Part shown: positions 40,572 through 51,457 of the stretch, piece by piece
How the letters are laid out: every line of letters starts with the position of its first letter
How positions within the stretch are numbered: the first letter of the stretch is position 1
From: Saprospiraceae bacterium
GTDB taxonomy: Bacteria; Bacteroidota; Bacteroidia; Chitinophagales; Saprospiraceae
Assembly: GCA_028280415.1 (NCBI GenBank)
Contig: JANQLV010000024.1
Location: 62,001 to 126,000 of the forward strand
DNA: 64,000 bases
Direction of reading: 5' to 3'
Program-made: the position numbers and the translations under genes
The notes under the pieces: generated by a model
Databases searched by the model: none
Told to the model about the DNA's origin: nothing
The model's input: the letters and a program-made list of their open reading frames with translations, nothing else

Positions 40572-41225
40572 CTAGGAAGCAAGATCACCTCCATTCCAGC
40601 TATTATGTGATTCCAAATACCTACTGAATTCCGGATAGTGTGCTTTAAAATTATTGAGAATAAATTCATAAGGCACATCCGCAAAATGGCCATAATCTTC
40701 GAGGTATTCCATAAACTCCTGCCCATCCCGATTGTATTCCTGAAAAATCGAGTCTTGTACGCCATCAAAATCCAAAGGTGCTACATTACAACGTTCACAG
40801 AGTGCAGCATTGAAAGCCGGAGATGCTTTTAGCCATTTTCCATCGAGAAAGATATTGACCATCCCGTGTGGAGAAAGCTCATTTGTACCCAGTTTTTCTA
40901 CGAGCGTTTCCACCGCAATATGGTTTTTAACCTTGGCCAGCTGAATCCGGGCAGGAATTCCCAAGCCTCTCAGACAGGCAATCAACAAAACCGATTTATC
41001 AATACAATGCGCTTCCTTGCGTTCGGCAATATCACTTGCCCGCCATTTATCTTTATTTAGATAAATATTATAAGCATTATAACGCCAGCCATCCCGAATT
41101 TTCAGATAGCAGGCCACCGCTTTTTCACGATCTGAATATTTACTATCTTTCAGCTCTTGAATCAGATTTTGAATCTTATCGTTTTCATAATCAAAAAAAT
41201 AAGTTGCCTGCAAATATTGATTCAT
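40572..41225 (-). CDS. Transglutaminase-like (Cys protease fold) protein
   Basis: A 217-residue protein of the transglutaminase-like superfamily. Catalytic Cys lies in EAHCIDKSVLLIACLRGLGIPAR (a classical motif, Cys near 74), and the His in SPHGMVNIFLDGKW (near 120); the third residue is not clear. No signal peptide, so cytosolic. Bacterial members are mostly peptidases or cross-linking enzymes with unknown substrates. Convergent with the small exported-protein gene and divergent from the CHAT gene. Confidence 0.85.
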   Translation of the reverse strand: MNQYLQATYFFDYENDKIQNLIQELKDSKYSDREKAVACYLKIRDGWRYNAYNIYLNKDKWRASDIAERKEAHCIDKSVLLIACLRGLGIPARIQLAKVKNHIAVETLVEKLGTNELSPHGMVNIFLDGKWLKASPAFNAALCERCNVAPLDFDGVQDSIFQEYNRDGQEFMEYLEDYGHFADVPYEFILNNFKAHYPEFSRYLESHNSWNGGDLAS

Positions 41226-41476: not shown

Positions 41477-44356
41477 ATGAATTTCTCCCTTCGAATTTTA
41501 CCAATAATAATCGTATTTCTTTTTCAAACTTCCATTGCTGCACAAAAAAAACCGAGCATTGATATTTCTATAGACAGCACTAAAGCTTTATTTAAAGTCG
41601 GGAAATATCAAGAAGCTATTAATCACAGTAAGCAAGCTGCATGGGCCTGTGTAAAAGATAAAGAATGTCCTAATGAAAAAGCAGCAATTGCATTTACCTG
41701 GACCGCAAATGCACTCGCCCGTCTTTCTCAATCTGATTCTTGTTTTTATTATGCGCAGCAAGCACGTTCATTACTTCACAAGGACTCTTTAAACCACCAA
41801 TGGCCCCTGGCTAATGTTTACACTACGCTTGGCCACTATTATGGCTTAATAGAAGATTATAATGCCGCCATCGATATTTTCAAACAAAAGCTTGAACTAA
41901 AGTTAGATACTACCTCAAGAGAACATCTACAGAATCAAAGCACAGCTTACAGCAATCTCAGTATTCTCAATAGTTTAAAAGGAGATGTGGAGATGGCTTT
42001 AGAGCTTATACTAACAAGCCTAAAACTGGAAAAAAAAATATACGGTGAGGATAACATAAAATTAGCTACTACTTTTCACAACACAGCAATTTTGTATACG
42101 AGCGCTAAGGAATATGAAAAGGCCCATCAATATAATAGAAAAGCAATCGAATTAACCCTTGAGCATTTTGGTGAAACGCATCCTTATTTGGTGACTATTT
42201 ATAGTAATGCAGCGATCAACTATCGGCATCAAAAGGATTATGAAAAAGCTATACAATATATCTTTAAAGCAGAAGAAGTACTCTTGAAAACAAACGGCAA
42301 ACAACATCCTTACTATGCGAAGCTCAATGTTGATATTGGACGAATTTATGAAAAAATGGGACAATATGAACTAGCTATACAATATGCCGAAAAAGCTAGT
42401 AAAACCCGGGTTCAACAATATAATTTTAAGCATCCGCGAATCGGTAATGATTACATTTGGCTCAGTAGACTATACCTGTTGAATAAAGAATATGATAAGG
42501 CCTGGCAATCCTTAGAAAAAGCAAGGGATATTCTAAATTACGACGAGGCTGAATCAAAAAACTTTGAAGCCATTAATGAATTGAACTACTTATTTTCCTA
42601 TTTTGAACAACGGGTCATCTATTACGAAACCTTATCCACACTAGAAAATCAAACAAGCTACAGAGATTCTATTTTACAATCATTAGATCGTCTAATGTTA
42701 TTATGGGATAACATTGAAGAAAAAACCAATACAAAGGCTGATAAGTTTTTAAAAATAGAACGAGCATTTCCCGTTTTTGAAAAAGCAATCAGTCATCGTT
42801 TTCAAACTCGTGATCGGCAAAAATGGGAAGAAGCATTCATCATCGCAGAAAAAAGTAAAAGTCGTTTACTCTATCAAAATTTTAAAACGCTCCAAGTTGC
42901 CAGTTTTTATAATGTCCCGGACTCTATTATTAAAAAGGAAAATAAAATTCAAAAAAGCATCACTGATTTCGAGACAAAGCGTTTTAAAGAAAAGTTTTCC
43001 AGTAATCCCCTCAAAGACAGTCTAATAAGCGATCTGGAATTAAAAATTTTACAATTTAACCTGGAAAAAGAAAGTTTAACAGAAACCATTAAAAACCGAC
43101 ATCCAGAATATTACCGGTTAAAGCACTCTTCAAAAGATGTGGATATTTCAATAATCCAGTCGACTTTGGATAAAGATGAAAGTATAATCGAATATTTCGT
43201 TGGTGATAGCAGCATTTATATTTTTGTACTTGGTCAAACAAGTTTTTCGGTAAAAGAGATAAAAAAGGATTTCCCTCTGGATGATTGGATCAAGCAATTC
43301 CGCCAAAGCATTTACGGTCACTGGACGAACAAAGAATATTCGGATGAACTCTATCAAAAAAACGCCAATATCTACACGGAGAGCGCTTTTCAATTGTACC
43401 AAAAATTAATTGCCCCCGTCAAACCATTTTTGACTAAACGATTAATCATCATCCCCGATGCCTCCCTCTACCTTCTGCCATTTGATGCTTTACTGGTCAA
43501 CCGGCCCCAACAAAGAAATAATGACTTCAAAACGCATCATTATCTAATTCGGGATTATCAAATAGCTTATAACTTTTCCGCAAATTTTAGAACAGAGGCA
43601 ACTAAAAACAAGCCTAAAGACAATGATAAGAATCTAATTGCTTTTGCACCTTCTTTTAAACCTCTTTCCGGAACGACAACTAATATCCGAAGTCAGTTAT
43701 ACGAGCTTCAATACAATCAGGAAGAAACCAATGTAATTAATTCGATTATTCCAAGTACTGTTTTCCTTGCGGAAAAAGCGAGTAAGGAACGTTTCATGCA
43801 ATTATTCGATACTTCTTATAAGATCGTACATTTAGCTACTCATGGTAAAGCGAATAATAATAGCGGTGACTTTTCCTTTCTCGCTTTCACTCAGCTTGAT
43901 ACTAGTGAAGAAAAAAGTAATTTACTTTACGCCCGTGAATTATACAATACCTCAACCAAGGCTGACATGGTGGTTCTTAGCGCCTGCGAAACGGGGATTG
44001 GAGAATTAAAAAAAGGCGAAGGAATGATCAGTTTATCGAGAGGATTCACCTATGCCGGTGCCCAAAGTGTATTGTCCAGTTTATGGACCATCAACGATCA
44101 GCAAAGTGTTGATTTTTTCAAATTATTTTACCAAAACATCAAAGAGGGGATGCCCAAAGATAAGGCTTTACGACAGGCGAAATTATCTTACCTTGAACAA
44201 AGTCCCCTGCCCGATCCTTATTTTTGGTCCGCTTTTGTAATCACTGGTGATATGACAGCTATTGATTTGAATTCAAGCCGATCGTCCTGGAAATGGATAG
44301 GTTTTGCTTTTGCTCTAATTGTTGTCTTTATTTTTTATAAAAAAATAAGAGGTTAA
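41477..44356 (+). CDS. Exported, membrane-anchored TPR-CHAT caspase-like protease
   Basis: A 959-residue protein. Signal peptide 1-22 (ending SIAAQ); about ten tetratricopeptide repeats between 35 and 380 (for example AIDIFKQKLELKLDTTSREH, AYSNLSILNSLKGDVEMALE, AIQYAEKASKTRVQQ); a helical linker; a CHAT domain at about 625-930 with the caspase dyad His789 (HLATHGK) and Cys837 (VLSACETGIGE); then a single membrane helix (about 938-954) and a short basic KKIRG tail. The predicted topology puts the TPRs and protease in the periplasm. CHAT proteases cleave specific partners (separase-like; Csx29 in type III-E CRISPR; gasdermin activators). The gene is convergent with, and overlaps by four bases, the anti-sigma-like TPR gene. 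Confidence 0.9.
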   Translation: MNFSLRILPIIIVFLFQTSIAAQKKPSIDISIDSTKALFKVGKYQEAINHSKQAAWACVKDKECPNEKAAIAFTWTANALARLSQSDSCFYYAQQARSLLHKDSLNHQWPLANVYTTLGHYYGLIEDYNAAIDIFKQKLELKLDTTSREHLQNQSTAYSNLSILNSLKGDVEMALELILTSLKLEKKIYGEDNIKLATTFHNTAILYTSAKEYEKAHQYNRKAIELTLEHFGETHPYLVTIYSNAAINYRHQKDYEKAIQYIFKAEEVLLKTNGKQHPYYAKLNVDIGRIYEKMGQYELAIQYAEKASKTRVQQYNFKHPRIGNDYIWLSRLYLLNKEYDKAWQSLEKARDILNYDEAESKNFEAINELNYLFSYFEQRVIYYETLSTLENQTSYRDSILQSLDRLMLLWDNIEEKTNTKADKFLKIERAFPVFEKAISHRFQTRDRQKWEEAFIIAEKSKSRLLYQNFKTLQVASFYNVPDSIIKKENKIQKSITDFETKRFKEKFSSNPLKDSLISDLELKILQFNLEKESLTETIKNRHPEYYRLKHSSKDVDISIIQSTLDKDESIIEYFVGDSSIYIFVLGQTSFSVKEIKKDFPLDDWIKQFRQSIYGHWTNKEYSDELYQKNANIYTESAFQLYQKLIAPVKPFLTKRLIIIPDASLYLLPFDALLVNRPQQRNNDFKTHHYLIRDYQIAYNFSANFRTEATKNKPKDNDKNLIAFAPSFKPLSGTTTNIRSQLYELQYNQEETNVINSIIPSTVFLAEKASKERFMQLFDTSYKIVHLATHGKANNNSGDFSFLAFTQLDTSEEKSNLLYARELYNTSTKADMVVLSACETGIGELKKGEGMISLSRGFTYAGAQSVLSSLWTINDQQSVDFFKLFYQNIKEGMPKDKALRQAKLSYLEQSPLPDPYFWSAFVITGDMTAIDLNSSRSSWKWIGFAFALIVVFIFYKKIRG

Positions 44357-45087
44357 ATTTCTTTTAAAAGGAGATTGGCTTCTTCTTTTTTAAAGCCCTT
44401 AGATTCGGATTGAAAATCCAACAAAATCTTTCGGGCTGTTTCTTTTTGATTTATTTGCAGGTAAGCAAGCGCAAGATACCACTGTGCTTCTGATTTCAAC
44501 AAAGCACTTTCATTCGATAAAATAGCTTCCAGTAGAGGAATGGCTTCTTCGGCTTGCTGTTTAGCGAGCAATGAAATGGCGTAATAAAAAGGGGTATAAG
44601 AATTTTCCGGTGCTTCTTTTTCGAGTAAGGCCGCAAACAATAAATTGGCTTCTGCATAGTTCTGTCTATCATAAGCGACCAGGGCCCTGCGCAGTTTTTG
44701 ATCTTCGGAGCCTGGAGTACCTCTCTGCTCAAATACGTTTGGATAAGGTTCAAAATATTTTGCGAAAGCAATCTCAGAATGGTTTGACGGAATTTCTTTT
44801 GTGAAAAAATAATACAATGTTATAGATAAGATAAAAATCCCGAAAGCGGCAGCCATTGCCATTCTTCTTCGTCTCCTGGGTTGGGAACTGACAACCTCTG
44901 TATGAATTTTTTTTAGCTCAGTTTGCAGTTTAGAGCGGGATGATAAACGCACAGATTCTTCTGCTACCTGCTGTGCAAAATCTTCCTTTTGCATTTTTTG
45001 TTGAAACAAAGAAAGCTCCTTTTCATCAAGGCTTTGCTCCATAAATTTGCGAATTAATTTCCGATCTTGTGAAGGAAGATCATTCAT
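44353..45087 (-). CDS. Membrane-bound TPR protein, probable anti-sigma factor
   Basis: A 244-residue single-pass protein. Residues 1-70 are cytosolic and resemble the helical N-terminus of anti-sigma factors (LIRKFMEQSLDEKELSLFQQ; no zinc motif). A basic run (71-75, five Arg) precedes a membrane helix (76-95), so the C-terminal half is periplasmic: about 118-240 form three to four TPR-like repeats (LRRALVAYDRQNYAEANLLF and so on). Its start overlaps the ECF sigma gene by eight bases, the usual sigma/anti-sigma arrangement. The periplasmic TPRs face the TPR-CHAT protease encoded opposite. Confidence 0.8.
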   Translation of the reverse strand: MNDLPSQDRKLIRKFMEQSLDEKELSLFQQKMQKEDFAQQVAEESVRLSSRSKLQTELKKIHTEVVSSQPRRRRRMAMAAAFGIFILSITLYYFFTKEIPSNHSEIAFAKYFEPYPNVFEQRGTPGSEDQKLRRALVAYDRQNYAEANLLFAALLEKEAPENSYTPFYYAISLLAKQQAEEAIPLLEAILSNESALLKSEAQWYLALAYLQINQKETARKILLDFQSESKGFKKEEANLLLKEI

Positions 45088-45694
45088 TTTTCAGCTCTTT
45101 GGCTAAACGACTAAATTCAGCTGATTTAAGAATTATTTTTTTCAACTGTTCTATACATTTGTATTTTTTGTTCCTCGCTACCTGTGCATTATTAAACTGC
45201 ATTATTTCTGCAATTTCTTTCATCGCTACTTTTTTATAAATAGACAATTCTAGTATTTTTTGACAATTATCTCCCAATTCGTTGATTATTGATTCCGCAA
45301 AAACCATCATTTCTTTTTGGAACAATATTTCATTGGCTGAAATATTATTATCCTTGCCCTCATGCGCCGCAACATTGAGGCCAACTTGCCGGTTATTTCT
45401 TTTTGCTCTGTTGATCCAATTATTTTTAGCGATCGTATAAAGATAGGTTTTGATTTTTGCATGGCGAATATATTTTCCATTTTTTACCTGTTCATAAAAA
45501 GTAATTAAGGTTTCCTGAAAAACATCTTCTGCTTCAAAAGTATTTCCGCCTTGTTTAATGACTAATTGCTTAATGCTACCAAAATGTATTTTGTAAAGAT
45601 ATTCTAGCACCGAACTTTCTTGCGGACCTCCCGATTTGAGGATGCTTATTATTTCCTCATCATTATATTTTTTAGCTTTTTTAAATAGCTTCAT
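45080..45694 (-). CDS. ECF-type RNA polymerase sigma factor
   Basis: A 204-residue group IV sigma factor: region 2 at about 22-95 (AEDVFQETLITFYEQVKNG, then KTYLYTIAKNNWINRAKRN) and region 4 at about 135-190 (CQKILELSIYKKVAMKEIAEI, QVARNKKYKCIEQLKK). There is no extra C-terminal domain. It is first in a two-gene unit with the membrane TPR protein and divergent from the T9SS beta-helix gene, a plausible target. The 245-base gap upstream is AT-rich and shows no standard -7 box, consistent with an alternative promoter. Confidence 0.9.
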   Translation of the reverse strand: MKLFKKAKKYNDEEIISILKSGGPQESSVLEYLYKIHFGSIKQLVIKQGGNTFEAEDVFQETLITFYEQVKNGKYIRHAKIKTYLYTIAKNNWINRAKRNNRQVGLNVAAHEGKDNNISANEILFQKEMMVFAESIINELGDNCQKILELSIYKKVAMKEIAEIMQFNNAQVARNKKYKCIEQLKKIILKSAEFSRLAKELKNE

Positions 45695-45939
45695 TATCAG
45701 CCTAAATTACTCAATAAAAACGATTAAAGAAACAGTTGGGACACCTTTTTATTCGCTTCCATTTATTCATACGTCTGTATCCGATAAATATTGTCAGTCT
45801 TGGCCTTAAGCCAAATCGGATTTACATTTTTTCTTAAAATAAAGCCAACCTATCAAAAAATATTTCAAAAAATGCGGTTACGTTTTTTCGACTTGATTGT
45901 TAAAGGGTGAACTTATTCATCACTAAAAAACATAAGATT

Positions 45940-48030
45940 ATGAAAACACATTTTTATCTTCTTTTAATATCCATTTTTTATTTTCAAAAAGTTAATGCTC
46001 AAACACCTAATCCTTGTATGAACGGAGACTACGAGTGGGCTGGTTGTTTCGAAGACGAATTGCTAGATCCGACTGGTACAGGAGTCTGGGTTGCTGTAAA
46101 CATAGTTAATTGTGTAGGAAGTACAGGTTCCACTATTTCTGTCAGTGATTTAGTATCAAGCGGCTACTTAGTTGATCCATCCATTTCCGCCTCTACTCCT
46201 CAAAGCTTAATTATCTTCGGTAATTTAGAGATAGATATCGATTATCATTTTTATCAAAGTAAATTATTTTTTGAGAATGAAACTCATACTCCGGGTGGTT
46301 CAGGAATTGGTATTGCTCCCGGGAAAAAACTTATAATTGATGATACCTATATTTCCTCTTGCGGTTTTGCCTGGGATGGAATAAATGTAAGAGTTGGTTC
46401 TACGCTTGAAATCATCAATAATTCGCTGTTGTCAAGAGCATCTCGAGCAGTGAATGTTAACAATAATACAACGATAAAAGTTGAAGATTCCTCTTTTAGA
46501 TCTAATTCCGTTTCTATTAACATTTCTAATGTCCAAGGTGCCACGTATCAAATCAACCGAAATAAATTCGAAGGGATTTTAAGATTTTTTCCGGACTTTT
46601 TTAACGGAACAGGTGATAACTTTGGAATTACGTTGGTCAATTCAGATCCTGTCACTATCGGGGATGAAAATCATTTTTTAAGTTTTAGAGAAGTAGGATT
46701 AGGCGTAGAAAATACCGAACTCACCTTAGGTAACAGAAACATTTTTGAAAATTCTTTATTTGGTTTACGAATCAAAAATGAGACTGATCCGAACGCGTTT
46801 TATGAAATTTCCAGAAATAGTTTTATCAATAATTATTTTGGATTATCCTCTTTTGCAGTAGACTCTAAAATTGAGCATAATTATTTTGAAATATCAAAAG
46901 TAAATTGGACGCATCCCTTCAATGCCAGAGCGATAACCGGATCAACGGATGATAATACTGTAGATATTAATAACAATGTAATTAATCGCTTAGAATATAT
47001 AGATGAAGTACTTGATGGAATCGTAATCGAAGGTGAACGAGGAACAGTAGATGTATATGATAATCAGATTAATCAATATGGTCGTGGAAGCTCAATCTAC
47101 GTTAGAAATGGCAATTTGATCTCCAGTTTTATTCACCATAATGTGATTACACATGAATCGATTTTTGATGATAATACAGGTATCTATTTTAAAGAATCAA
47201 CAGGTATAAATCAAGCTTATGAGAATACAATCATCAGTAATGCTGAAGACGCTTCTTCCTTTTTCACAGGTATATTGGTTGATAAGGCCGATAATGTAGA
47301 AATCTTTGACAATAATCTAACTTCTAAAGTTAATCAACTTTTTGAGAGTCCTCCCCCAATACCATTCTTCTTTGATCAAAATAATATAAAAGGCATAGAG
47401 TTACTAGCAGCTCAAAATTGTAGGCTCGAATGTAATGAAATCGAAAAATTCCAATATGCTTTGAGATTCACTGGCAATTGTTCTCCAACTACTGTAAAGA
47501 ACAATATCATGAATGAATCGGGAGTAGGAATTATGGTTCATCTTATTTCAAGTTTTGGATCAATAATCAATGGTGCTAATCGATTTACCGGTTCTTTTAC
47601 TTATGCCGAAGCAGTCTGTCACGGTGATCTGACTCAAAATATTTTTCAAGTTGGTTATAATGTAAATGATTTTTACCCAAATCCACACGAACCAGTTGGT
47701 TGGGTTCAACTCAATGGTATAGTAGAGAATTTTGACTGTCCCCCAGGTTCAGGTCCAGGCTCAGGCTCGGGTCTTCAATTAAGAAAAGAAGCCACTTCTG
47801 ACTTTAATCCAACAATTTATCCGAATCCGGTTACCAATGACTTCAAAATATTGGGCATCGACCAATCTGCTACAATTACCATTTATTCTACAAAAGGAAG
47901 ACTTGTTTTTGAAAAAATTATCTCTGGCTCAGATGAAGAAATCAATATCAATACTTTGTCTGCTGGCATGTATATCGTTCAGATCACAAGTGCCGATCAA
48001 GTATCTAATCTTAATCTTATAAAACATTAA
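45940..48030 (+). CDS. T9SS-secreted right-handed beta-helix protein
   Basis: A 696-residue surface protein; the ATG at 45940 opens a signal peptide (MKTHFYLLLISIFYFQKVNAQ), so the GTG-led extension from 45907 is not used. Residues about 190-560 are short Asn/Phe/Ile-rich rungs typical of NosD/PbH1 beta-helices (for example NRNIFENSLFGLRIKN, ISRNSFINNYFGLSSF). A GSGPGSGSG linker precedes a T9SS sorting domain (IYPNPVTNDFKILG, LSAGMYIVQI). Such proteins bind or cleave surface polysaccharides or serve as adhesins; no catalytic motif is evident. Divergent from the sigma operon. Confidence 0.88.
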   Translation: MKTHFYLLLISIFYFQKVNAQTPNPCMNGDYEWAGCFEDELLDPTGTGVWVAVNIVNCVGSTGSTISVSDLVSSGYLVDPSISASTPQSLIIFGNLEIDIDYHFYQSKLFFENETHTPGGSGIGIAPGKKLIIDDTYISSCGFAWDGINVRVGSTLEIINNSLLSRASRAVNVNNNTTIKVEDSSFRSNSVSINISNVQGATYQINRNKFEGILRFFPDFFNGTGDNFGITLVNSDPVTIGDENHFLSFREVGLGVENTELTLGNRNIFENSLFGLRIKNETDPNAFYEISRNSFINNYFGLSSFAVDSKIEHNYFEISKVNWTHPFNARAITGSTDDNTVDINNNVINRLEYIDEVLDGIVIEGERGTVDVYDNQINQYGRGSSIYVRNGNLISSFIHHNVITHESIFDDNTGIYFKESTGINQAYENTIISNAEDASSFFTGILVDKADNVEIFDNNLTSKVNQLFESPPPIPFFFDQNNIKGIELLAAQNCRLECNEIEKFQYALRFTGNCSPTTVKNNIMNESGVGIMVHLISSFGSIINGANRFTGSFTYAEAVCHGDLTQNIFQVGYNVNDFYPNPHEPVGWVQLNGIVENFDCPPGSGPGSGSGLQLRKEATSDFNPTIYPNPVTNDFKILGIDQSATITIYSTKGRLVFEKIISGSDEEININTLSAGMYIVQITSADQVSNLNLIKH

Positions 48031-48157: not shown

Positions 48158-51100
48158 ATGAAAAAAATCTTAAATTTTTATTTACTCATTGCTTTTTTAA
48201 TGTTGAGTTATACTACAGCTCAAGGCACCTGCGGTGAGATCGTTCCCTTTGCATCCGAGCCAGTGGTTGATGGCTGTAATGTAACTTATGAAATGGATTT
48301 ATCAATCGGTGTAAACTGGATATTATATCCGGGTAATGGCTTGCCTCAGTCCGCATCCGTATCTTCAGCTACTAATGGGAGTAATGTCTATACACATACC
48401 TACCAAAATGCGCAGGGTGTTATCTATCCCAACATCAGATATTTTGATGCAAACTGGAACTTCATCTGCTCCAGTTTTTATCCGGTCACTATAAACTGTG
48501 GAACATCCTGTACAACGCCCCCTACTTTAGATTGCTCTATTAAGACCTCTCAGGGAACTATCCTTTCTTCTTGCCAATCTACTACTTGTGCAGGGGATTG
48601 TGTGGTATTAAGCCTTACCGAGCCTGGTTTTAATCCAGCAAATTACACCTACGTATGGTCATCCAACACACCCGTCAATGCAGCACCCAATAATTGGTAC
48701 ACGCAATCGATCTGTACCTCTGACATCTATTCTGTAACTATAACGGATGCTCAAGGATGTACCCAGGTCAGGGATTTCGACATTTCTATTGTCCCACTTC
48801 CAAACATAACTCTAAGTCAGGATGGGCCACTGACTTGTGACAATCCAAATGTGACCATCAATACTAATTCTTCCGGTTATTGTTATCAGTGGAGTGATGG
48901 ATCAAGCAATTCATCCTTAACCGTAAATGCTCATGGTCAATATTGCGTAACCGTTTCAGATTGTGTGACAGGATGTGCCGTCGAATTATGTGAAGATGTA
49001 GTAGCGGATCAGGAAGCTCCGGATCTAGATTGTAGTATTCTCGATCCTGATGATAATTCTGTTTTGGCAAACAACTGCTCCTACGCGATCTGTGAAGGAG
49101 AGTGTGTAATATTATCAGTCAACGGAAATGAGGATTACACTTACTCATGGAGCCCTGTAGTTGGCAATAATAACGAATGGTTTTCTGACAAAATATGTGA
49201 AGCGGGAATTTACACCGTCACGATCACAGCAGCTAATGGTTGTCAACAAGTAAAAACGTTTGATATCACGACCGTCCCTCTTCCGGTAGTAACACTTACC
49301 AGTAATGGCCCCATCAGTTGTGAGCAACCAGAAGTGACCATCACTGCTACAGAAGGCTATTGCTATGAATGGAGTGATGGTTTGGGAAATGATAAAACAG
49401 CCACTGTAACCAACGCAGGAGAATATTGCGTAACTGTTTCAGATTGTAATTCAATTTGTCAAACGATAAAATGTATTACCATTGAAGAAGAACCGGATGC
49501 TTTTGATGTGACCTGTTATATCCTGCAACCATTCCCATTCGAGTCTGCGTCAGAGACTGTTGGGATCATCGAGCAGAGTTGTGAATATACGCTTTGTGGA
49601 GATGAATGTATTACATTATCGGTAGGGGAAGAACCTATGAATACGGGATATACCTATAATTGGGAATCCAGTTTAGGTTATTTTCCTTTTAACGGAGAAT
49701 GGGTCAAGCCCAAACTCTGCGAACCAGGTAATTACAGTGTTACTGTTACCAATCAAGAAGGATGTTCCATTGTTAAAACTTTTACAATCACTAGTACAGA
49801 ATCTCCAACCCTTGAAATAACTGTAGATGGAGAGATCGATTGTAATATGGTAGAAACGGTTACACTCAGTGCTACATTCGATGCGAATTATGAATATTTC
49901 TGGAATCAAAATTTGGGAACTAATCCTGAAGTAGAAGTTTTAGATCCAGGTGAATATTGTGTGACTGTTACGGATGTATTGACAGGCTGTAGAGCCTCTG
50001 AATGTGTAAATTTGACCGGAGGTTCGTTCTGCAATGTGGGAAGTTTTGATGCAAGCGCTGAGATCAATGGCGTACAGGGTGGAGGTCCCTATCTTTTTGC
50101 GGATGGTTTGCTGGAAGGAGAATCTTTGTGTTGGGAATTCGAGCCTAATTCAGTTCCTGATTATCTGATTATTACGATTGGTGGAATAGAAGTTGTAAAT
50201 ACAGGAAATGTCGCAGGCTTAAGTTCTTCTGATTGCAATGATCCCCAAATTAACTATTGCGATTGCGTTGATTATTTTTTGGGAGATTATAGTGATGGAG
50301 ATTGTATAGATTTAGTTGCTGGTAGTGCTTTAGTTACTCAAGATGAGGGAGATGTAGATCCAATTGCACAAGCTACAATTAGTGGGAGCATCCTAATCAC
50401 CCCTGACTTAGCTTGCAAAGAGATATCGGTGACCATTGGTAACGATTGTGGGGAAGACATTAATGAGATTTGGGACGCGTCTCTGTATTGTTGTGATTAT
50501 CCTGTCGAATGCTTCGATGGTTATTTCCCGCCAGTGACCAATGGATATTGTAGAACCAATGATGTCGGCACCTCTTTCCTATGGGATGCAGTGCCAGATG
50601 CTGTTGGATATATTATTACTATTGATCAAGGGAACAGCGAATGTTGTCCTACTGTAGCACCTGCTAATTTTGCCCCCATAAATATTGAAGTCTCTCAAAA
50701 CTTTTTCGTCTTACCAGATGATTTACCAGAATGTTTTAACTGGTATGTACAAGCCGTAGGGCCCAATGGTGAGGTTTCAGCACCAGGCCCTTTAAAATGC
50801 TTCAACGATGCAGCTGTCTGTCAGGAAGTATATGATCTGGAGCCTTGTGAAAATCCGGAAGCACCTGGTCCTGTTAGTTGTGATGTGGTAGCAAATGGCT
50901 TGCAACTGACTTGGCCGGCCCAACCTGTTGCAGTAGCTTACACGGTAGTCGTTAATGTCGGACCAAGCGCTTGCTGTCCAGATATTGAAGAATCAAGTAC
51001 TAGCATTTTCCAGACAACCCGAAATGAACTCATCCTCCCAAGAGATTTCGGCGAATGTTTTACCTATACTATATTCTCTGTTTGTGAGGACTACACAGCC

Positions 51101-51457
51101 TCCCCTGTTTCAGAGCCGTATTGCGTGGATGACATTTGGAATTGTAATGGCAAAGAAGAAGGCCCCAAGGGTAGAAGTCAAAACTTTGATACATTAAGTT
51201 CAAACGCCAATTTCGAAGCCTATCCTAACCCTGCTAAGGACAGAGTAAATGTATTATTCAATGCACTTCAGGAAGGTCAATTGGAAATTCAATTACGAAG
51301 TATTGATGGGCGCTTAATGAATACGATGGTTTCGCAAATTTCCAAAGGAGAAAATATAGTTTCTATGACTACGGAAAAAATTCCTTCCGGTATTTATTTC
51401 TTGCAGATTGAAACCAAGCAGCAAAAAGTATTTAAAAAAGTGGTGATTCAGAAATAG
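48158..51457 (+). CDS. Cysteine-rich T9SS surface protein with repeated Ig-like (SprB/PKD-type) modules
   Basis: A 1099-residue protein with signal peptide 1-22 (ending TTAQ). Residues about 125-620 hold three long repeats, each with a Cys-rich opening (CEGECVILSV, CAGDCVVLSL, CGDECITLSV), an aromatic YTYSWSP-like strand, IYTVTITAANGC and CYEWSDG segments and a final EYCVTVSDC. Two fibronectin-III-like modules with SACCPD or SECCP follow (about 790-1000), then a T9SS sorting domain (AYPNPAKDRVNVLF, IPSGIYFLQIE). The high number of paired Cys implies disulfide-stabilised stalk modules. Probably an adhesin; cotranscription with the beta-helix gene is unlikely because of the hairpin. Confidence 0.88.
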   Translation: MKKILNFYLLIAFLMLSYTTAQGTCGEIVPFASEPVVDGCNVTYEMDLSIGVNWILYPGNGLPQSASVSSATNGSNVYTHTYQNAQGVIYPNIRYFDANWNFICSSFYPVTINCGTSCTTPPTLDCSIKTSQGTILSSCQSTTCAGDCVVLSLTEPGFNPANYTYVWSSNTPVNAAPNNWYTQSICTSDIYSVTITDAQGCTQVRDFDISIVPLPNITLSQDGPLTCDNPNVTINTNSSGYCYQWSDGSSNSSLTVNAHGQYCVTVSDCVTGCAVELCEDVVADQEAPDLDCSILDPDDNSVLANNCSYAICEGECVILSVNGNEDYTYSWSPVVGNNNEWFSDKICEAGIYTVTITAANGCQQVKTFDITTVPLPVVTLTSNGPISCEQPEVTITATEGYCYEWSDGLGNDKTATVTNAGEYCVTVSDCNSICQTIKCITIEEEPDAFDVTCYILQPFPFESASETVGIIEQSCEYTLCGDECITLSVGEEPMNTGYTYNWESSLGYFPFNGEWVKPKLCEPGNYSVTVTNQEGCSIVKTFTITSTESPTLEITVDGEIDCNMVETVTLSATFDANYEYFWNQNLGTNPEVEVLDPGEYCVTVTDVLTGCRASECVNLTGGSFCNVGSFDASAEINGVQGGGPYLFADGLLEGESLCWEFEPNSVPDYLIITIGGIEVVNTGNVAGLSSSDCNDPQINYCDCVDYFLGDYSDGDCIDLVAGSALVTQDEGDVDPIAQATISGSILITPDLACKEISVTIGNDCGEDINEIWDASLYCCDYPVECFDGYFPPVTNGYCRTNDVGTSFLWDAVPDAVGYIITIDQGNSECCPTVAPANFAPINIEVSQNFFVLPDDLPECFNWYVQAVGPNGEVSAPGPLKCFNDAAVCQEVYDLEPCENPEAPGPVSCDVVANGLQLTWPAQPVAVAYTVVVNVGPSACCPDIEESSTSIFQTTRNELILPRDFGECFTYTIFSVCEDYTASPVSEPYCVDDIWNCNGKEEGPKGRSQNFDTLSSNANFEAYPNPAKDRVNVLFNALQEGQLEIQLRSIDGRLMNTMVSQISKGENIVSMTTEKIPSGIYFLQIETKQQKVFKKVVIQK

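Follow-up and report, generated by a model that had tools for sequence, protein, structure and literature searches.

The locus described here lies in a 64,000-nucleotide stretch of a Saprospiraceae bacterium (GenBank assembly GCA_028280415.1, contig JANQLV010000024.1, positions 62,001 to 126,000), hereafter called the window. It comprises three genes, encoding a TPR-CHAT protease, a single-pass TPR membrane protein that is probably an anti-sigma factor, and an extracytoplasmic function (ECF) sigma factor. An earlier note made from the sequence had proposed them as a proteolytic switch in which CHAT cleavage of the membrane protein frees the sigma factor. The three parts were confirmed by the list of open reading frames together with Pfam and NCBIfam matches. 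The CHAT gene and the membrane-protein gene are arranged tail-to-tail with a 4-base overlap, the membrane-protein gene and the sigma gene overlap by 8 bases, and the trio is real and intact. The features, numbered from the first letter of the window, are as follows.

41477..44356, + strand: TPR-CHAT protease gene, 959 amino acids (aa), predicted exported and C-terminally anchored (open reading frame, Pfam, hydropathy, AlphaFold2)
41558..43099, + strand: helical TPR superhelix, residues 28-541 (Pfam TPR matches inside; AlphaFold2)
43379..44251, + strand: CHAT domain, residues 635-925 (PF12770, E=8e-60)
43841..43843, + strand: catalytic His789 (alignment)
43985..43987, + strand: catalytic Cys837 (alignment)
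44282..44338, + strand: C-terminal transmembrane helix, residues 936-954 (hydropathy; model helix 935-958)
44353..45087, - strand: single-pass TPR membrane protein, putative anti-sigma factor, 244 aa (open reading frame, hydropathy, model, family)
44887..45087, - strand: predicted cytoplasmic N-terminal helical segment, residues 1-67 (model; anti-sigma-like at family level)
44800..44874, - strand: transmembrane helix, residues 72-96 of the model (hydropathy, model)
44719..44769, - strand: predicted periplasmic juxtamembrane motif AFAKYFEPYPNVFEQRG, residues 107-123, with Arg122 as a candidate cleavage site (hydropathy, model)
44359..44703, - strand: predicted periplasmic TPR domain, residues 129-243 (model, Foldseek)
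45080..45694, - strand: ECF sigma factor gene, 204 aa (open reading frame, Pfam, NCBIfam)

The sigma factor matched sigma region 2 in Pfam (PF04542, E=3.5e-12) and scored 59.8 bits against the NCBIfam sigma70-ECF cut-off of 42.9, which places it among the ECF factors. A Pfam match to region 4 was lacking in the window protein and present in 8/26 relatives. For the CHAT protein, a TPR_12 match was also found in Pfam (E=1.4e-31), and the AlphaFold2 model had a mean pLDDT of 85 and a pTM of 0.81. Its hydropathy profile exhibited an export-type N-terminal segment and a C-terminal transmembrane segment at 936-954 followed by basic residues. The membrane protein showed a single transmembrane segment at about 77-95 with RRRRRM on its N-terminal side. 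These profiles agree with the topology claimed earlier, namely an exported CHAT protein with a C-terminal anchor and a single-pass TPR protein, and based on the predicted transmembrane and export segments, the TPR parts of both proteins are predicted to be periplasmic.

The His789/Cys837 dyad, which the earlier note had described as intact, was borne out by alignment and is invariant across 11 paralogues. Having a CHAT domain and a His-Cys dyad, the window protein would be assigned by sequence to the CHAT peptidases. The relatives were sampled as 80 CHAT places hand-picked among the matches listed, leaving out genome G002, most of genome G006, short contigs and weak matches. A CHAT protein was scored as sigma-linked where a sigma gene was followed by any gene on the same strand (43/80 relatives and 13/19 genes of the window's own genome), and the linked sets contain at least two cases without a TPR anti-sigma factor (L084 and L114). 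On this definition the dyad was present in 55/56 linked CHAT proteins, which suggests catalysis. A signal-like N-terminus was found in 50/56 linked proteins compared to 32/43 unlinked, and a C-terminal transmembrane segment in 41/56 compared to 24/43.

When the CHAT profile was searched by sequence against the PDB, DdvA (8rot) was matched at E=4.2e-8, with the letters ATHG and AACEGG aligned at the dyad, and type III-E TPR-CHAT proteins at E=2.7e-5 to 0.02. The entries 8rot and 8rw5 are titled ‘transmembrane anti-sigma factor DdvA’, and from the name alone 8rot was taken to be the Myxococcus protein. The best Foldseek matches of the CHAT-protein model were Csx29 (8eey, E=2e-16), Craspase TPR-CHAT, human separase and DdvA (E=4e-13). 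Superposition of the whole chain on DdvA was poor (TM-score 0.24), the common part being CHAT. The comparison with Csx29 made at the outset is thus upheld by both sequence and predicted fold, and DdvA proved to be the closer parallel.

The membrane protein gave sub-cut-off TPR matches in Pfam and nothing else. Its AlphaFold2 model (mean pLDDT 87) places helices at residues 6-16, 22-32 and 35-67, followed by the transmembrane helix. Foldseek with the whole model returned TPR proteins at E just above 0.001 and was uninformative for the N-terminal part. When the N-terminal segments of the family were searched separately, 16/27 members matched the NCBIfam antisigma model (best E=4.4e-6) and 9/27 matched PRK13920, a putative anti-sigmaE model. 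An ISL3 transposase model was also matched by 4/27, a sign of cross-matching between helical segments, so lone weak anti-sigma matches are not to be trusted. A zf-HC2 match below the cut-off was found in one relative (L173). Gene pairing, topology and family similarity taken together indicate that the membrane protein is probably an anti-sigma factor holding the sigma factor. The linker between the transmembrane and TPR parts follows a YFEPY motif in the window copy, and a basic residue after motifs of this type was conspicuous in the initial 26 sequences. Arg122, situated in this low-confidence linker (pLDDT about 64), is a candidate for the cleavage site. Elsewhere in the genome (L150:6044-6899, contig C58), a sigma gene precedes a relative of the anti-sigma gene whose reading frame is broken by a stop.

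The association between the two families was determined in an even sample of 148 genomes of the phylum, the window's own included, using a threshold of E=1e-10 for the membrane-protein family; all counts from this sample are among the matches listed. Named relatives and genes of the type IX secretion system indicate that this phylum is Bacteroidota. The family was found in 49/148 genomes and CHAT in 71/148. Using a family profile built mostly from CHAT-adjoining sequences and a full-length filter chosen post hoc, after the list had been inspected, 42/52 family matches outside the own genome were within 7 kb of CHAT and 18/52 within 1 kb. Without the length filter the corresponding numbers were 43/78 and 19/78. 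By genome, the filtered matches gave 31 with both families, 2 with the membrane protein alone, 40 with CHAT alone and 75 with neither (Fisher P=3.8e-10), so that CHAT was present in 31/33 family-bearing genomes compared to 40/115 others. The unfiltered matches gave 40, 9, 31 and 68, respectively (P=5e-9), with CHAT in 40/49 compared to 31/99. In the reverse direction, a family member was found within 7 kb of 46/125 CHAT matches in other genomes. The difference between 42/52 and 46/125 indicates that the membrane protein depends on CHAT more strongly than the reverse.

A separate scan of named organisms used four CHAT queries and covered 80 loci out of at least 568 candidates, with a stricter label requiring both the sigma factor and the membrane protein. 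Such a pair was found within 6 kb in 25/80 loci and within 1 kb in 20/80; for the 38 loci flanked on each side by over 6 kb, the numbers were 13 and 11, respectively. The 20 loci with a pair within 1 kb include Kordia, Aquimarina (four), Zobellia, Aureibaculum, other Flavobacteriaceae and Owenweeksia, together with one bacterium each of Chitinophagales, Cytophagales and Bacteroidales, Flavilitoribacter and Saprospiraceae. In the relatives the trio took the tail-to-tail layout of the window, or else a divergent or co-directional one. It stays together despite a varying layout, including in named Flavobacteriia, Cytophagales, Bacteroidales and Saprospiraceae. Conserved co-occurrence far beyond close relatives, on which the proposal had been staked beforehand, was thus found both in the phylum sample and in the named genomes. 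Four Aquimarina loci (L174, L188, L217 and L218) exhibited a recurring CHAT neighbourhood of another kind, without a sigma gene and with genes of about 1000, 120, 254 and 320 aa, representing a different CHAT context.

With 7.1 Mb in 81 contigs, the window's genome contains 22 CHAT matches and 81 sigma70-ECF matches, 22 of the latter being partial or weak (below the family cut-off), and in a genome this rich in both families the genes could be neighbours by chance. An ECF gene was found within 6.5 kb of 13/22 CHAT matches, compared to a mean of 3.9 and a maximum of 11 in 5000 randomisations within contigs (P=2e-4); this test used the sigma matches on CHAT-bearing contigs, with nine weak partial (region 4) matches there excluded. 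Given this result and the phylum-wide association, which refutes it, chance neighbourhood has a negligible probability.

The genome has about 13 copies of the trio module, a repetition that the earlier note had missed, and related bacteria often carry many copies as well. A profile made from twelve CHAT-neighbouring membrane proteins gave 14 matches of at least 100 bits, including all twelve; the other two were at C5:343570, about 12 kb from a CHAT gene, and at C62:221698, near a contig end and without CHAT. Tree distances over 13 modules of the genome were correlated for sigma and anti-sigma (0.71), anti-sigma and CHAT (0.71) and sigma and CHAT (0.69), each with P=0.0005, and the partial correlation of anti-sigma with CHAT given sigma was 0.43 (P=0.0045). 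In the larger set of 79 modules, drawn from many genomes, the three correlations were 0.69, 0.33 and 0.31, respectively, and the partial correlation of anti-sigma with CHAT given sigma was 0.17 (P=0.04). The correlated distances indicate that the modules were duplicated largely as units, despite changes in gene order. Two other arrangements were seen in the same genome: a single CHAT gene flanked on both sides by sigma/anti-sigma pairs (L023:5921-13127, contig C43), and a run of several CHAT-type genes with no sigma or anti-sigma genes near (L033:413-11314, contig C46).

The closest known system, DdvA/DdvS, shares with the window trio an ECF sigma factor, a transmembrane anti-sigma factor, putative in the window, and a CHAT domain. 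DdvA is one chain of 991 aa with both anti-sigma and CHAT parts, whereas the window encodes two separate proteins. No fusion of this type was found among the 201 CHAT proteins in the studied loci, none of which matched the N-terminal anti-sigma profile at E=1. That DdvA joins in one chain what is split here strongly supports a single pathway, and the three window proteins very probably act in one. In Myxococcus xanthus, DdvS is active once DdvA is inactivated, by a signal left unidentified in the accessible part of that report (PMC4374960). This signal and the presence of CHAT in the same chain would also suit a CHAT protein that controls the anti-sigma factor by binding without cutting, as the fused CHAT of DdvA may do. 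The dyad retained in nearly all linked CHAT proteins argues against such a mechanism, which is considered rather improbable.

The second parallel, the type III-E CASP system, combines a TPR-CHAT protease, a sigma inhibitor and an ECF sigma factor, and cleavage of the inhibitor relieves the inhibition of sigma (Csx29, Csx30 and CASP-sigma; accessible part of PMC10028731). As described there, the system is cytoplasmic and activated by RNA via Cas7-11, whereas the window proteins are predicted to be exported and membrane-bound and their locus contains no cas gene. The claim that no CRISPR gene is present held for the locus, where no cas gene adjoins the trio, but not for the genome, in which two cas1 and two RAMP matches were found at C4:40807-47374 and C13:56378-57229, on contigs without a CHAT match. 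Cas7-11 accompanied by TPR-CHAT, which defines type III-E, was not found: RAMP matches occurred solely on the CHAT-free contig C4, where their frames measure 281 and 395 aa. A role in anti-phage defence, as in type III-E CRISPR, would fit the homology of the CHAT domain to Csx29. It is highly improbable in view of the cas-less locus, the predicted periplasmic location, the neighbouring genes for proteins sorted by the type IX secretion system (T9SS) and the absence of any PADLOC match among the six window proteins scanned.

Regulated intramembrane proteolysis by DegS and RseP acts on the membrane anti-sigma factor RseA, DegS being a serine protease. The module proposed here would resemble it in having a membrane anti-sigma factor and a periplasmic first cut, and would differ in using a caspase-like CHAT protease for that cut. 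The DegS/RseP-RseA system is also cited in the accessible part of PMC10028731. ECF54 of Actinobacteria has CHAT, subtilase and carboxypeptidase proteins in its genetic context, and proteolytic control has been proposed; in the accessible part of that source it is said to have no anti-sigma factor (PMC8999054). The window likewise has an ECF gene with CHAT in its context, and differs from ECF54 in having a dedicated putative anti-sigma gene that overlaps the sigma gene. In EACC2-caspase systems a caspase-fold peptidase neighbours ECF sigma and DUF1822 TPR genes (PMC8195603), so that the same three kinds of protein are coupled as in the window; the peptidase architecture and the organisms differ, and the accessible part of the paper does not mention a membrane anti-sigma factor. 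In a literature search that most subscription papers and all bioRxiv preprints lay outside, no description of a split, membrane-bound CHAT/anti-sigma/ECF trio in Bacteroidota was found. The window module is best regarded as a CRISPR-independent counterpart, in split form, of both DdvA and Csx29-Csx30-CASP-sigma.

In the window, both genes past the sigma promoter encode proteins with T9SS sorting domains.

45907..48030, + strand: beta-helix protein with T9SS sorting, encoded divergently from the sigma gene and possibly a sensor, cargo or target
48158..51457, + strand: second T9SS-sorted protein (Pfam scan)

Across modules, genes with T9SS sorting domains made up 17/52 of those between the pair and CHAT and 12/41 of the sigma-divergent neighbours compared to 50/552 others (P=3e-5), an enrichment that the earlier note had not reported and that is biased by a profile built from ten such neighbours. 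These proteins may be sensors, cargo or targets. The enrichment also bears on the principal rival explanation, in which CHAT and the T9SS protein are outputs: a self-sensing sigma/anti-sigma pair would switch on a protease that acts on secreted or envelope proteins. Two-block motifs common to the sigma and CHAT upstream regions, compared over 26 tail-to-tail modules, were slightly commoner within modules than between them (P=0.047), as this explanation would predict. The signal is marginal, the window's own pair of upstream regions scored below average, and promoter sharing was dropped as support. Furthermore, the stronger dependence of the anti-sigma family on CHAT is better suited to a partner than to one among many targets, and the anti-sigma and CHAT parts are combined in the single DdvA chain. 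The output explanation is accordingly regarded as unlikely. An element like GTTAACCTT was common to flavobacterial sigma upstream regions (L198, L213 and L222), perhaps reflecting an autoregulated promoter, and was not obvious upstream of CHAT. Other neighbours include a transglutaminase-like protein encoded divergently from the window CHAT gene (40572-41225; PF01841, E=5e-12) and, elsewhere in the genome, a thiol-activated cytolysin family gene between the pair and CHAT (L024:3147-4973, contig C38; PF01289, E=3e-36).

The preferred explanation is a membrane-spanning module that releases the sigma factor by proteolysis. Judging from family similarity and gene pairing, the membrane protein would use its N-terminal segment to retain the sigma factor in the cytoplasm, while its TPR domain would, on the predicted topology, face the anchored TPR-CHAT protease in the periplasm. 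A signal would be sensed by the TPR parts or by the T9SS-exported partner encoded alongside. CHAT would then cleave the anti-sigma factor on the periplasmic side, with the flexible linker that follows YFEPY as the probable site, and an intramembrane M50 protease (two M50 genes are present in the genome) and cytoplasmic proteases would finish the process and free the sigma factor. Whether CHAT cleavage of the anti-sigma factor is the trigger is rated an even chance, and the module as a whole explanation is judged equally evenly balanced.

Several results weigh against this explanation. The sigma-binding-like N-terminus described in the earlier note stood at the family level only: at E=0.1 the segment of the window copy gave no hit to any anti-sigma model. 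A PDB search with the N-terminal profile turned up no convincing anti-sigma structure, Nif11 (E=0.003) being the best match. The candidate Arg was present in just 33/73 sequences and a basic residue in 51%. Among the 56 linked CHAT proteins, one (L084) had no recognisable Cys, and in 15 a C-terminal transmembrane segment was not detected by the test used. Among the matches listed, 79/125 CHAT matches in other genomes had no membrane-protein partner within 7 kb. In the window's genome the excess of sigma genes near CHAT disappeared at 2 kb (3/22 compared to a null of 1.5, P=0.19), the wider distance being needed because one to three genes often intervene. Over the 79 modules, the correlation of sigma with CHAT given anti-sigma was not significant (0.13, P=0.09).

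A wider form of the proposal is possible, if somewhat doubtful. It envisages a phylum-wide, CRISPR-independent family in which periplasmic caspase-like CHAT proteases make the first cut in dedicated TPR anti-sigma factors, with duplication into about a dozen parallel channels in one genome and T9SS surface proteins as sensors or targets. Such a family may have been the stock from which DdvA arose by fusion and Csx29-Csx30-CASP-sigma by CRISPR capture.

Class I anti-sigma factors have been recognised beside few ECF genes in Bacteroidetes, 6% compared to 32% in all phyla (accessible part of PMC7406223). If the module operates as proposed, a family of TPR-type anti-sigma factors that have their own CHAT partner would go some way to explaining how the many sigma factors of this phylum are controlled. 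Caspase-like CHAT proteases would also gain a physiological substrate outside CRISPR, and the module would be a natural counterpart to the protease-sigma circuits in current use as RNA-triggered tools.

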